47,735 bases of DNA from Candidatus Methylomirabilota bacterium (GTDB lineage Bacteria > Methylomirabilota > Methylomirabilia > Rokubacteriales > CSP1-6): positions 1 to 47,735 of the forward strand of contig DASYUQ010000003.1 in NCBI GenBank assembly GCA_036001065.1, given 5' to 3'. The position numbers and the translations under genes were made by a program. Below are positions 12,831 through 16,874 of this stretch, piece after piece; the first letter of the stretch is position 1; each line of letters begins with the position of its first letter. The notes below the pieces were generated by a model. That model saw only the letters and a program-made list of their open reading frames with translations. It was not told the origin of the DNA and did not search any database.

Positions 12831-13442
12831 TTACCGCGGCGTGAGGATGGCCCGGCCGGCGGCCGTGTCCACCGTCAGCGTGAAGTAGTCGAGCACGTCG
12901 CGGCCGAGCAGGCCGTCCACCCCGGCGACCCCGACGTTGTGGACGATGATCGCCAGCGGCCCTACGCGGGCGCCGACCACGTCGAGCCGCGGGATCGTCA
13001 CCTCGCGCGCCGCCGCGCGCCCCGTGGCGCCGACGATCTCCACGACGCGGCCGCTCTCGGCGTCGACGCCGGCGCGCGCGACGGCGGCGGGCGACAGCAC
13101 CGTGCGGTCGGCGCCCGTGTCGAGCACGAGCGTCAGCGGCGTGCCGTTGAGATGGACGGCCGCCGTGATCGCGCCGCCCGGCATGAACGAAAGCACCGTG
13201 GACCCCACGGCCGGACGCGGCGCCTCCGGACGCGACTGGGGGCTGCCGATGTCACGCGCGGTGGCGCGATGGTCGGGCGGGATGGTCGCGGGATCGTTCG
13301 TGTAGCGCGTGATCCCCTCGCCGTCCGTCCACCGATAGAGCTGCGCCCCCGCGCCGCCCGGCGCCGCCAGCGCCGCCACCACGAGCACCAGTATGGCCGT
13401 GGTGCGAGCGGCAGCTTGGCCGTAACGTCCTTCGACCTTCAT
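12831..13442 (-). CDS. Secreted retropepsin-like aspartic protease with DUF4124 domain
   Basis: A 203-residue protein. A hydrophobic export signal spans about 14-32 (cleavage likely after G-A-G-A). A DUF4124-like segment follows (L-Y-R-W-T-D-G-E-G-I-T-R-Y-T-N-D). The single-domain aspartyl protease fold occupies 80-203, with active site L-V-L-D-T-G-A-D-R-T and the downstream G-L-L-G-R-D-V-L-D flap partner. Such proteases work as dimers outside the cytoplasm, and their substrates are unknown. Its ATG overlaps the stop of the AhpD-like selenoprotein (ATGA), so it belongs to that operon. Confidence 0.85.
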   Translation of the reverse strand: MKVEGRYGQAAARTTAILVLVVAALAAPGGAGAQLYRWTDGEGITRYTNDPATIPPDHRATARDIGSPQSRPEAPRPAVGSTVLSFMPGGAITAAVHLNGTPLTLVLDTGADRTVLSPAAVARAGVDAESGRVVEIVGATGRAAAREVTIPRLDVVGARVGPLAIIVHNVGVAGVDGLLGRDVLDYFTLTVDTAAGRAILTPR

Positions 13443-13969
13443 CCGAGATCGGGCTCGACCCGGAGGCCGTCGTTGAACCGGTTGGTGAAATTGGCGGCGC
13501 AGATCACCAGCGTCAGCTCGACGATCTGGTCCTCGCTGAAGTGCTGGCGCAGCTCCTGCAGCGTGCCGTCCCGGACGGCGGCCGCCCCACGAGTCAGCCG
13601 GTCGGCGTAGAGGATGACCGCCTTCTCCCGGTCGTCGAACAACGGGCTGCGCTCGTAGAACGTCAACGCCCGGATCTGCTCCTCCGTCACGCCCACCCGC
13701 TTCGACGAAGCGGTGTGCGCCCGGGTTCAGTACTCGCAGCCGTTGACCATCGAGACCTTCAGGTAGGCGAACTCCTTCAGCTTGGGCTCGACCGTCCCCT
13801 GGGTGACGACGGCCCCGTAGAAGGGCAGGAAGTTCTTCAGCACGTCCGGCCGGTGGGCCATCACGCCGAAGATGTTCGGCACGCGGCCGAAGCGCTTGGT
13901 CAAGTCCTCGTAGATCGGCTTGACGTCTCCACTGGCCTTGTCTTTCGGAACGGGATTCACCACGGCCAT
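13439..13969 (-). CDS. AhpD-like (carboxymuconolactone decarboxylase family) selenoprotein, CxxU, in-frame TGA
   Basis: Reading the TGA at 13729-13727 as selenocysteine gives a 176-residue protein that covers the whole AhpD/CMD fold. The active motif reads N-G-C78-E-Y-U81-T-R-A-H-T. In ordinary homologues position 81 is Cys (C-x-x-C followed by x-x-x-H). Coding-quality sequence continues in the same frame on both sides of the TGA, and a hairpin (13697-13713) begins 13 bases after it. The family reduces peroxides or disulfides. AAGGAGG precedes the ATG at 13969. It follows the UGSC gene by 25 bases and overlaps the retropepsin gene. The selenium machinery (selA, selB, selC, selD) is outside the window. 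Confidence 0.88.
13695..13726 (-). promoter_or_regulatory. Candidate bacterial SECIS hairpin for the AhpD-like selenoprotein
   Basis: Just downstream of the in-frame TGA (13729-13727) the minus strand can form CCGCTTC-GTC-GAAGCGG (13713-13697), extended by two pairs past a bulged G. Bacterial SECIS elements lie inside the coding sequence directly after the UGA and present a G in a small apical loop to SelB. Position and loop fit; pairing has not been computed. Confidence 0.6.
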
Positions 13970-13994: not shown

Positions 13995-15665
13995 TCACTC
14001 GTCCACCGGCATCGTGACCGGCTCGCCGGCGCCGTAGAAGTAGGCTCCCCGCCCGGCGGCGGCGCCGACCACCGCGATGTCGTAGCAGGCGGGGTCCTCG
14101 ACGACCGGCAGCGGCAAGTCCGGATGATCGTGCAGCCACCCGAGCTCCGGATGCGCCACCGCCATCGCCTTGGGCTCCTTGTTGAGCATGAGCGTCGCGA
14201 ATGGCAGGCGCGCCGCGCGGTGCAGCGCCTCCTGGATCTGGCCCCGCCCCCAGCCGGCCTTGGCGAAGATCTGGGCGTGCTCGGGACAGATGAACAGCGT
14301 GTTGTGCTCCTTCTCCTCCGTCTTGTAGCGGGGGTCGGCGCGGCGGCCGATGAGCCAGAGGCCCGTCCCCACCTGGGCCACGTTGGTGGCGGCGGTGGCG
14401 AAGACCTGGACGAGCCGCTCGGGGGTCGTCGACTGGAAGTCGTGCAGCTCGCACATGCCGTAGACGAAGTGCACCGTGACCGCGCTGGCCTCCTTGGCGA
14501 AGCCCCGGGTGACGTGGTAGGGCTCCCAGGGGCTCTCCTTCTCGTTCTCGGCGCAGCAGAGACTGTACTTGAGCGGGGAGCCGATGGTGTCCATGTCGCT
14601 GACGCCGACGTACGTGTGGCCGACGTTCATCATCGTGAGCCGCACGGCGCGGCCGAGTACCGTGTTGCTGGCCGAGGGCGCCCCCGGTCCCAGTGCGCAC
14701 ATCCCCGAGTTGAGCCCGGCGTAACGCCCCTGGGGACCGTTGACGAGGACGAGCGGGGCGTGAGGCCCCGTCGACATCGCCTTGTTGCGGATGTACATCT
14801 TGGGCTCGGCCAGACACCGCACGGCGGCGATGAGGAGCGGCAGGTGCTCGGGGCCGGCGCCGGCCATCACGGCGTTGATGGCGAGCTTCTCGACGGTGGC
14901 GATGCCGAAGCCGGGCTCGAGCGTGGCGATCTGCTCACCGGGGGCGCGCTTTGTCCCCTTCAGCATCGCGGCGACAGCGCGCTCGGTCGGCGCCACCAGC
15001 GGAAAGCCATCCGACCACCCGCGCGTGCGGAAGTCGCGGTTCATCGCCTCCCACGCGGCCAGGGCGTCCTCGCCGTCGTACGCGAGGCGCTCGTCGAGCG
15101 CCGGGCGATCGACGGCCCCGGACTCGGGCACCGGCCGGGTGAGCCCCGCGATCACCTGCTCGAAGGCCGCCTCCACCATCTGGTGCACGGCCTCGGGCTT
15201 CTGGTTGGTGAACGGCCGCGGCACCACGGCCAGCGGCAGACCGGGCAGGCCGAGGCTGGCAGCGGTGCGCTCGGCGTCGTGCACGAATGTCTGCGCGGTG
15301 AAGATGACGGTGGGAATGCCCCGCCGCTCCAGCTCGACCATGTCGTGGGCCCCCCACGACGTGCAGGACCCTCAGTCGTTGGTGGTGCCGACGACGGCGT
15401 GCACCTCCGAGGCGATGCGGTCGGCGTCCTCGGCCGTGCAGTGGCGCATGAGCCAGCCGACGGAGCCGGTGTAGCGCTTGAACTTGACGCCGGGGAACTT
15501 CTCGCGGAGGAGCTGCTCGGTCCGGTCGAGGGCGAAGTCGCCGCCCGCCTTGATGTTCCAGTAGAGGCCGAGCGTCACGCCGCTCCAGTCCCGCAGGCGC
15601 GGCGCCGGCTTGACCGAGAATTCGACTGTCTTGGCCACGGGATTGAGGATCTCGAGCCGTGCCAT
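13995..15665 (-). CDS. UGSC-family selenoprotein fused to a large domain of unknown function, in-frame TGA
   Basis: Reading TGA 15374-15372 as selenocysteine gives a 556-residue protein. Residues 1-215 hold the motif T-T-N-D-U98-G-S-C101-T-S-W-G-A-H-D, the hallmark of the UGSC selenoprotein family, with U and C spaced as a redox pair. Residues 215-556 form a second domain with R-G-W-S-D-G-F-P-L-V-A-P-T and several scattered Cys; I do not recognise its function. Ten codons of clean coding sequence link the TGA to the long downstream ORF, and a perfect 8-bp hairpin starts 11 bases after the TGA. GGAGGG precedes the ATG at 15665. It lies 9 bases after the CoA transferase gene, so the two are co-transcribed. 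A selenium-dependent reductase or lyase role is only a guess. Confidence 0.85.
15342..15371 (-). promoter_or_regulatory. Candidate bacterial SECIS hairpin for the UGSC selenoprotein
   Basis: The minus strand 15360-15342 reads GTCGTGGG-GGG-CCCACGAC, a perfect 8-bp stem with a G-only apical loop, beginning 11 bases after the in-frame TGA. This is the clearest of the three candidate SECIS structures in the window by stem length and by its G-containing loop. Confidence 0.7.
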
Positions 15666-15674
15666 GAGTCCCTC

Positions 15675-16874
15675 CTACAGGATGACCTTCTTGGCGCGCA
15701 GGGCGGCGATCTCGGCCGCCGAGTAGCCGTACTCGGCGAGCACGGCGTCGGTATGCTCGCCGCGCAGCGGGGCCGGCGCGCGAACCCCCGGCTGCATCCG
15801 CGAGAACTTGACGGGCGTGCCCACGACCGGGATCTCGCCGAGCTTCGGATGCACGATCCGTTCGATGATCCCCCGGGCGGCCGTCTGGGGGTCGGTCATC
15901 ACCTGGTCCACCGTATTGACGGGAGTGGCGGGCACGCCGGCCTCCTCGAGGATCTTCAGCAGCGGCTCCCGCTCGTGACCGGCGATGGCCTCCTCCAGCG
16001 CCGCCTCCAGCTCCTGGCGGTGCCTGACGCGCTCGATGTTCGTGGCGAAGCGCGCGTCCGCCGCCAGATCGGGCCGCCCGAGCGCGGGCGCCAACCGTTG
16101 CCAGAACCGGTCGTTGGCGCCGGCGATGAAGATCCACTGCCCGTCCTGGCAACGGAAGTTGCGGTAGGGGGAGAGCGACGGGTGCGAGGAGCCGAGCGCC
16201 TGGGGAATGGCCCCGGTGAGGAGATAGCCCTCCGCGTGGTAGTTGAGCAGGCTCACCGCCGTCTCCAGCAGCGAGCCGTCCACGCGCTGGCCGAGCCCGC
16301 TCTTGGCCCGGGCCAGCAGGGCGTTCACGATGCCGAAAGCGCACAGGATGCCGGTGGTGAGGTCGAGGAAGGACACACCGCAGCGCACGGGCGGCCCGTC
16401 GGGCTCGCCGGTGATCGACATGATGCCGCTGAACGCCTGCATCAGCGCCTCGTAGCCGGCGCCGTCGGCGCGGGGGCCGGTGCGCCCGAAGGCCGAGATG
16501 GAGCAGTAGATCAGCCGGGGGTTGGCCGCGGCCAGCGTGTCGTAGCCCAGGCCGAACGACTCCATGGTGCCCGTACGGAAGTTCTCGATGAGGACGTCCG
16601 CCCGCGCGACGAGCCGCCCGAAGACGTCCACGCCCTCCCGAGCCTTGAGATCGAGCGCGATGTCGCGCTTGTTGCGGTTGATGACGAGGTAGGCCGCCGA
16701 CTCGCCGTCCTTGTGCGGTGGCCAGGTGCGCGACTCGTCGCCGGCGCCGGTGTCCTCGATCTTGATGACGTCGGCGCCCAGGTCGGCCAGCAGCATGGCG
16801 CAGAAGGGGCCGGCCAGGACGCGGGAGAGATCGAGCACGCGAACGCCGTCGAGCGCGAGGGCCGGGCGTGTCAT
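15675..16874 (-). CDS. CaiB/BaiF-family (type III) CoA transferase
   Basis: A 399-residue protein with family landmarks: L-D-L-S-R-V-L-A-G-P near residue 15-23, L-A-D-L-G-A-D-V-I-K-I-E at 29-40, N-R-N-K-R at 66-70, I-E-N-F-R-T-G at 96-102, and T-G-x-L-C-A-F near 190. These enzymes move CoA between organic acids through a mixed anhydride on an Asp. In the usual G-Y-D position this protein has G-Y-E (E142), which may alter chemistry or simply be tolerated. The ATG at 16874 is only 19 bases from divergent metH. It is the first gene of the operon that includes both the UGSC and AhpD selenoproteins, which suggests the acid or thioester it handles feeds that redox chemistry. Confidence 0.85.
   Translation of the reverse strand: MTRPALALDGVRVLDLSRVLAGPFCAMLLADLGADVIKIEDTGAGDESRTWPPHKDGESAAYLVINRNKRDIALDLKAREGVDVFGRLVARADVLIENFRTGTMESFGLGYDTLAAANPRLIYCSISAFGRTGPRADGAGYEALMQAFSGIMSITGEPDGPPVRCGVSFLDLTTGILCAFGIVNALLARAKSGLGQRVDGSLLETAVSLLNYHAEGYLLTGAIPQALGSSHPSLSPYRNFRCQDGQWIFIAGANDRFWQRLAPALGRPDLAADARFATNIERVRHRQELEAALEEAIAGHEREPLLKILEEAGVPATPVNTVDQVMTDPQTAARGIIERIVHPKLGEIPVVGTPVKFSRMQPGVRAPAPLRGEHTDAVLAEYGYSAAEIAALRAKKVIL

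Follow-up and report, generated by a model that had tools for sequence, protein, structure and literature searches.

A UGSC selenoprotein fused to an unclassified C-terminal domain in Candidatus Methylomirabilota and its likely remote relation to GrdB/PrdB proteins

Gene organization of the locus

The window analyzed here is a stretch of 47,735 nucleotides from a Candidatus Methylomirabilota bacterium of soil/groundwater (contig DASYUQ010000003.1). On its minus strand lies a frame of 556 codons that is open except for a single TGA at codon 98, and the motif around this codon reads D-U-G-S-C-T-S-W. The product consists of a UGSC domain followed by a large C-terminal domain, here called CT (Table 1). 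The fusion gene itself ends in TGA; thus, TGA still serves as a stop codon in this host.

A class III CoA-transferase gene is located directly upstream on the same strand, both in the window and in 11 Rokubacteria orthologues, and is absent or different in others. The two genes are likely to be on the same transcript. The AhpD-type selenoprotein gene downstream, to which the CxxU-type motif and the PF02627 match belong, adjoins the fusion in only one or two close relatives (locus L006 is the named one) and is a local association outside the conserved UGSC/CT pair. The sequence-only reading had stressed a position behind a CoA-transferase and before a second selenoprotein; the first half is conserved in the clade, but the second is local and shared with orthologue L006 only. 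Farther downstream, an aspartyl-protease-like gene (12834 to 13442, minus strand; PF13650, DUF4124) overlaps the stop codon of the AhpD-type gene with its start (ATGA), which suggests coupled translation of these two genes.

TABLE 1 Fusion gene, its elements, and its nearest neighbors in the window
Feature	Position	Strand	Remarks
UGSC/CT fusion selenoprotein gene	13995..15665	-	556 aa, Sec at residue 98; stop TGA 13995-13997
UGSC domain, residues 5-176	15138..15653	-	PF24696, E 3e-34; AlphaFold2 model; Foldseek flavodoxin-like, E 5e-4
In-frame TGA, Sec98	15372..15374	-	TGA in 24/24 homologues
Cys101, redox partner of Sec98 in UxxC	15363..15365	-	Invariant
Putative bacterial SECIS hairpin	15342..15360	-	8 bp, 3-nt loop in the window; 7-bp stem kept in orthologues
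C-terminal domain (CT), residues 186-556, unclassified	13998..15110	-	No Pfam/PDB relative; AlphaFold2 pTM 0.87, without PDB fold match
Class III (CaiB/BaiF) CoA-transferase gene	15675..16874	-	PF02515, E 4e-138; 9 bp upstream of the fusion gene
AhpD/CMD-type selenoprotein gene	13439..13969	-	CEYU, codon 81, TGA 13727-13729; PF02627, E 4e-19; TIGR01926, 82.5 bits

Selenocysteine at codon 98

A genome scan returned 24 homologous loci, 43 to 94% identical and nearly all full length, labeled as Rokubacteria/Methylomirabilota, Chloroflexi (including SAR202), Tectomicrobia, Nitrospinota, and Betaproteobacteria. All 24 carry TGA at codon 98, one of them within U-G-G-C. Across Methylomirabilota, where UGSC was found in 72 of 95 genomes, exactly one TGA is read through in every UGSC match listed. 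Cysteine takes the place of selenocysteine (CGSC) in loci L073, L075, L076, L079, L131 to L133, L135, L137, and L138; such Cys-type homologues come from haloarchaea, Arthrobacter, Roseovarius, and Variovorax, and CGSC is the form carried by the actinobacterial, some proteobacterial, and the haloarchaeal versions. A conserved in-frame TGA with Cys at the same position elsewhere is the pattern of a bacterial selenoprotein. These results confirm the continuous 556-codon gene, split by a TGA in U-G-S-C, that had been proposed from the letters, and the search for Cys homologues suggested with it was successful. A selenium-dependent pathway had also been suggested; a strict dependence does not agree with the CGSC versions in haloarchaea, actinobacteria, and some proteobacteria. 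That TGA98 is instead a true stop, a frameshift, or a sequencing error, leaving a broken gene or two genes, is highly improbable and already refuted for the clade: selA, selB, and tRNA-Sec are not detectable in the window's own assembly, but the same codon is TGA in 24 independent assemblies, both sides of it are approximately 94% identical to the nearest relative (G001), which has selA and selB, the frame from TGA to the stop (about 458 codons) is unbroken in about two dozen orthologues, and the selD gene of the own genome itself has an in-frame TGA.

The Sec machinery was searched for in the same metagenome-assembled genome, as had been advised. This look-up gave a divided result: selD was present, but no selA, no convincing selB, and no tRNA-Sec were detected, whereas nearly all fusion-bearing relatives have the machinery. 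The selB-like matches in the own genome resembled other GTPases (IF-2, LepA, EF-G, and EF-Tu), and the tRNA-Sec-like matches were ordinary tRNAs. Among 23 fusion-bearing relatives, selA and selB were each found in 20, normally as neighboring genes; tRNA-Sec adjoins selA in the loci of three relatives, and both selA and selB are carried by G001, the closest relative, whose fusion is 94% identical. Because the two genes are normally neighbors in such relatives, a single absent locus would explain all that is missing, and the absence of selA and selB is very probably an assembly gap. The assembly (G000) is rated 100% complete and holds several selenoprotein genes, yet lacks detectable selA, selB, and tRNA-Sec, likely through one missing locus.

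The hairpin GTCGTGGG[GGG]CCCACGAC, with a perfect 8-bp stem and a 3-nt loop, starts 11 nt after the TGA. Pairing of the 7-bp stem reaches 98.8% across 25 orthologues; two pairs are compensated, both in one divergent sequence. Paralogues have stems of other sequence at an unchanged distance, often closed by a GTG or GTN loop, and Cys-type haloarchaeal genes also retain a stem. Synonymous recoding produced an equally good stem in approximately 10% of cases for the window gene and in 3 to 38% across single genes; the combined P value was about 3e-4, taken over paralogues that are non-independent. A full-window Rfam scan at gathering scores gave no match. A perfect hairpin is present at the right distance as first described, but its weight as evidence is reduced by the share of recodings that do as well; we regard it as supporting evidence, weak by itself and not decisive.

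Family and predicted fold of the UGSC domain

The UGSC domain of the window scored 119 bits against Pfam PF24696 (cut-off, 25), which bears out its identification as a UGSC selenoprotein, and 103 bits against the NCBIfam equivalog NF041046 (cut-off, 125). It thus shares motif and domain with the family, and because the second score falls under its cut-off, it is assigned, as judged by these profiles, to a divergent branch.

In the AlphaFold2 model, strands and helices alternate through residues 31 to 176. Sec98 stands at the start of helix 99-114, directly after strand 90-96, the third strand of the flavodoxin-like domain, and the best Foldseek matches of the UGSC domain in the PDB are flavodoxin-like. 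The fold is therefore predicted to be flavodoxin-like and not thioredoxin-like; no thioredoxin fold was found in this predicted (unsolved) structure. This model disagrees with the thioredoxin-like fold suggested for UGSC proteins earlier (PMC2398784) and with a 2026 review, which places them among the selenoproteins of Trx-like fold (PMC13188914). The flavodoxin-like prediction is an addition of the present analysis.

CT is a near-obligate partner of UGSC

The proposed fusion to a large, unclassified second domain proved to be real. Pfam gave nothing meaningful for 18 CT members (best E value, 0.085), and CT had no NCBIfam match, no sequence relative in the PDB, and no useful PHROGs match. The model of CT alone is confident (pLDDT, 84; pTM, 0.87); its best matches among PDB folds (E value, 0.04; TM score, 0.19) and viral models (E value, 0.4) were meaningless, and viral contigs contained no CT relatives. 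CT is thus a confidently predicted fold without a PDB counterpart. The invariant positions of the CT alignment are N-G, R, N, E, W, and G. The W-S-D-G motif noted in the first reading is partly conserved (D-G in at least 90%), but the many Cys residues noted beside it are not, as none is invariant.

UGSC and CT occur together in 70 Methylomirabilota genomes and are both absent from 23; a single genome has UGSC alone, and none has CT alone (Fisher P = 5e-21, ignoring kinship). CT is a near-obligate partner of UGSC, fused to it in the window and encoded by a separate neighboring gene elsewhere, often with Cys replacing Sec in the UGSC protein. UGSC is present in 1 to 12 copies per genome that has it. 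The own genome contains another fusion gene (L002), and at L001 and L003 it has UGSC and CT as separate genes next to each other. Adjacent separate genes were also found in Natrinema, Halorientalis, Halalkalicoccus, Haloterrigena, Arthrobacter, Roseovarius, and Variovorax, and plasmids carry the pair either fused or as neighbors, with UGSC or CT first. The pair, fused or neighboring, is widespread in bacteria and salt-loving archaea.

Several variants of the pair were observed. The own genome also encodes a divergent fusion paralogue with the active site H-U-S-T-C (L005; G000, contig C36). Within 17 kb, a Chloroflexi contig (L029; JACPQD010000103.1, 1 to 17608) encodes five CT domains and four UGSC selenoproteins, whose active sites vary among UGSC, UGGC, and UGTC. 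In the fusions of Sporomusa termitida plasmid pSPTER (L077, 8656 to 10380) and Vibrio europaeus plasmid pVEu (L078, 8653 to 10338), M-G-T-S replaces U-G-S-C, so that, by their sequences, both appear to have lost the redox pair; each lies near aconitase X and DUF126 genes. On Paracoccus ferrooxidans plasmid pFER4 (L080, 8992 to 10649), a UGSC selenoprotein is annotated as two hypothetical open reading frames split at the TGA; a CT gene follows it, and trxB, selA, and selB are approximately 4 to 9 kb away.

Gene neighbors in plasmid loci

Of the 15 plasmid loci, 7 have a TrxB-family gene no more than 3 kb away (L076, L079, L133, L135, L137, L138, and L139), and the order in the Arthrobacter plasmid cluster is trxB-trxA-CT-UGSC. 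The genome of the window has a TrxB; no adjoining trxB was found at the Methylomirabilota UGSC/CT copies examined. CoA-transferases, tripartite tricarboxylate/TRAP binding proteins, and several lyases recur in the plasmid loci; CoA-transferases and tricarboxylate-binding proteins are common genes, and the recurrence is given uncorrected for a background rate. The neighbors also include genes for the isocitrate lyase/phosphoenolpyruvate (PEP) mutase family, CoA ester lyase, aconitase X, and HMG-CoA lyase. Neighbor clustering over the genome-scan loci recovered mainly local synteny and frame-shadow open reading frames.

Relation to GrdB/PrdB proteins

Using hhalign, we compared the UGSC-domain profile with the Sec-bearing segment of GrdB/PrdB-type proteins, represented by small alignments of proteins from Rokubacteria and relatives. 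The match had a probability of 91.6% (E value, 8e-7), compared with 8.9% and 0.2% for two control profiles. The alignment places Sec on Sec and Cys on Cys, with U-x-x-C and E-x-x-G-I-P in register. These profiles indicate that the UGSC domain is likely a remote member of the GrdB/PrdB superfamily, related to its Sec-bearing end. The domain had no match over the cut-off of PF07355, a model that ends just before Sec, and the window protein matched TIGR01917 weakly (E value, 0.0012), so that by these models it does not belong to the GrdB family proper. The kinship, which would be remote, is an addition of the present analysis. Seven other loci of the same organism group (L118, L120, L123, and L127 to L130) encode short PrdB-like selenoproteins (U-P-x-C), whose match to the GRDB model is confined to its end.

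The mechanism proposed for D-proline reductase starts with the selenol of PrdB, which attacks substrate carried by the pyruvoyl group of PrdA; in a second step, a Cys residue forms a mixed selenide-sulfide, and the pair is re-reduced (PMC3091704). Glycine reductase receives electrons via thioredoxin reductase and thioredoxin (PMC3091704). The thioredoxin route is thus known for GrdB, whereas for UGSC/CT the likeness is proposed from gene neighbors. Both systems have the remotely homologous Sec segment and a partner protein. They differ in the partner: CT was rejected as a GrdE/PrdA-like pyruvoyl partner (hhalign against PF09338 proteins, probability 0.2%) and has no invariant Cys for a pyruvoyl group. 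A Cys-derived pyruvoyl group is therefore not expected in CT, and substrate activation must differ.

The UGSC proteins are a known selenoprotein family, among the most abundant ones in ocean metagenomes (PMC2398784), and the fusion as a type is not new. A UGSC/Unknown_1 fusion to a conserved unknown domain was reported in 2008 by Zhang and Gladyshev (PMC2398784); it has the same U-G-S-C domain, and its Unknown_1 part may correspond to CT. With this report in print and UGSC so common in Methylomirabilota, the emphasis first placed on the fusion was overstated. No described function for UGSC proteins was found in the literature searched, and it is plausible that the UGSC/CT reaction itself is undescribed so far.

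Proposed function

Our tentative reading, to which we give nearly an even chance, is that UGSC/CT is a two-component (seleno)thiol reductase that thioredoxin recycles and whose substrate is a small organic acid or an acyl-CoA, with both components on one chain in the window. The UGSC domain would supply Sec98 and Cys101, and CT, in the place of the pyruvoyl protein in a PrdB/GrdB-like scheme, would bind and activate the substrate, a small carboxylic acid or the corresponding CoA thioester. An electrophilic center of this substrate would then come under attack by the Sec selenolate, as proposed for PrdB of D-proline reductase, and Cys101 would resolve the intermediate to a selenenylsulfide. Electrons passing from NADPH through thioredoxin reductase and thioredoxin may restore the selenol. 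In the clade of the window, the CoA-transferase encoded next to the fusion would provide or consume the acyl-CoA, and in lineages without Sec, Cys at the same position would do the job. Four features make this scheme the best guess: the UxxC pair, a partner that is nearly obligate, the trxB/trxA neighbors, and the remote homology. The chemistry, the electron donor in Rokubacteria, and the acid or CoA substrate are what we infer. Against the reductase reading stand the Methylomirabilota copies without an adjoining trxB, the dissimilarity of CT to GrdE/PrdA, the remoteness of the GrdB/PrdB homology and the small alignments behind it, the commonness of CoA-transferase and tricarboxylate-binding-protein genes, and the fusions without a redox pair.

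The trxB/trxA neighbors of the plasmid loci and the UxxC motif would also suit a general thiol-disulfide or peroxide-detoxifying selenoprotein, with CT as an accessory and the AhpD-type selenoprotein encoded just downstream as the partner peroxidase; the grouping of UGSC with Trx-like-fold selenoproteins in the 2026 review agrees with this (PMC13188914). However, the model has the alternating strands and helices of a flavodoxin-like fold, not a thioredoxin fold, and the AhpD-type gene lies beside one orthologue only. The large conserved CT and the catabolic CoA-transferase and transporter neighbors point to a metabolic substrate, and we consider a detoxifying role unlikely.

Slightly less likely again is a non-redox function on organic acids, as a Cys/Sec-dependent isomerase, racemase, or lyase: Sec and Cys of the UGSC domain would serve as the nucleophile or in acid/base catalysis, with no net redox change, and CT would complete the active site. 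The flavodoxin-like fold and the neighboring genes for aconitase X and for the lyase families named above are consistent with such an enzyme, but the recurrent trxB-family genes and the GrdB/PrdB relation favor redox chemistry, Sec seldom serves non-redox roles, and the resemblance to Asp/Glu racemases is a putative one.

If the reductase reading holds, UGSC/CT could possibly represent, although this broader claim is more doubtful, an unrecognized class of (seleno)reductases that are recycled by thioredoxin and act on organic acids or acyl-CoAs, distant kin of the GrdB/PrdB Sec subunit with a substrate-activating partner of a fold outside the PDB, and expanded in Rokubacteria of soil and groundwater to up to 12 UGSC copies in one genome. 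The interest of the window gene lies in its leads on relation, partner, and reductant. Together, the CT partner, the GrdB/PrdB relation, and the trxB/trxA neighbors provide a first testable biochemical hypothesis for UGSC proteins, and the Cys versions of culturable Arthrobacter, Roseovarius, and Variovorax and of haloarchaea would allow testing without selenocysteine engineering.
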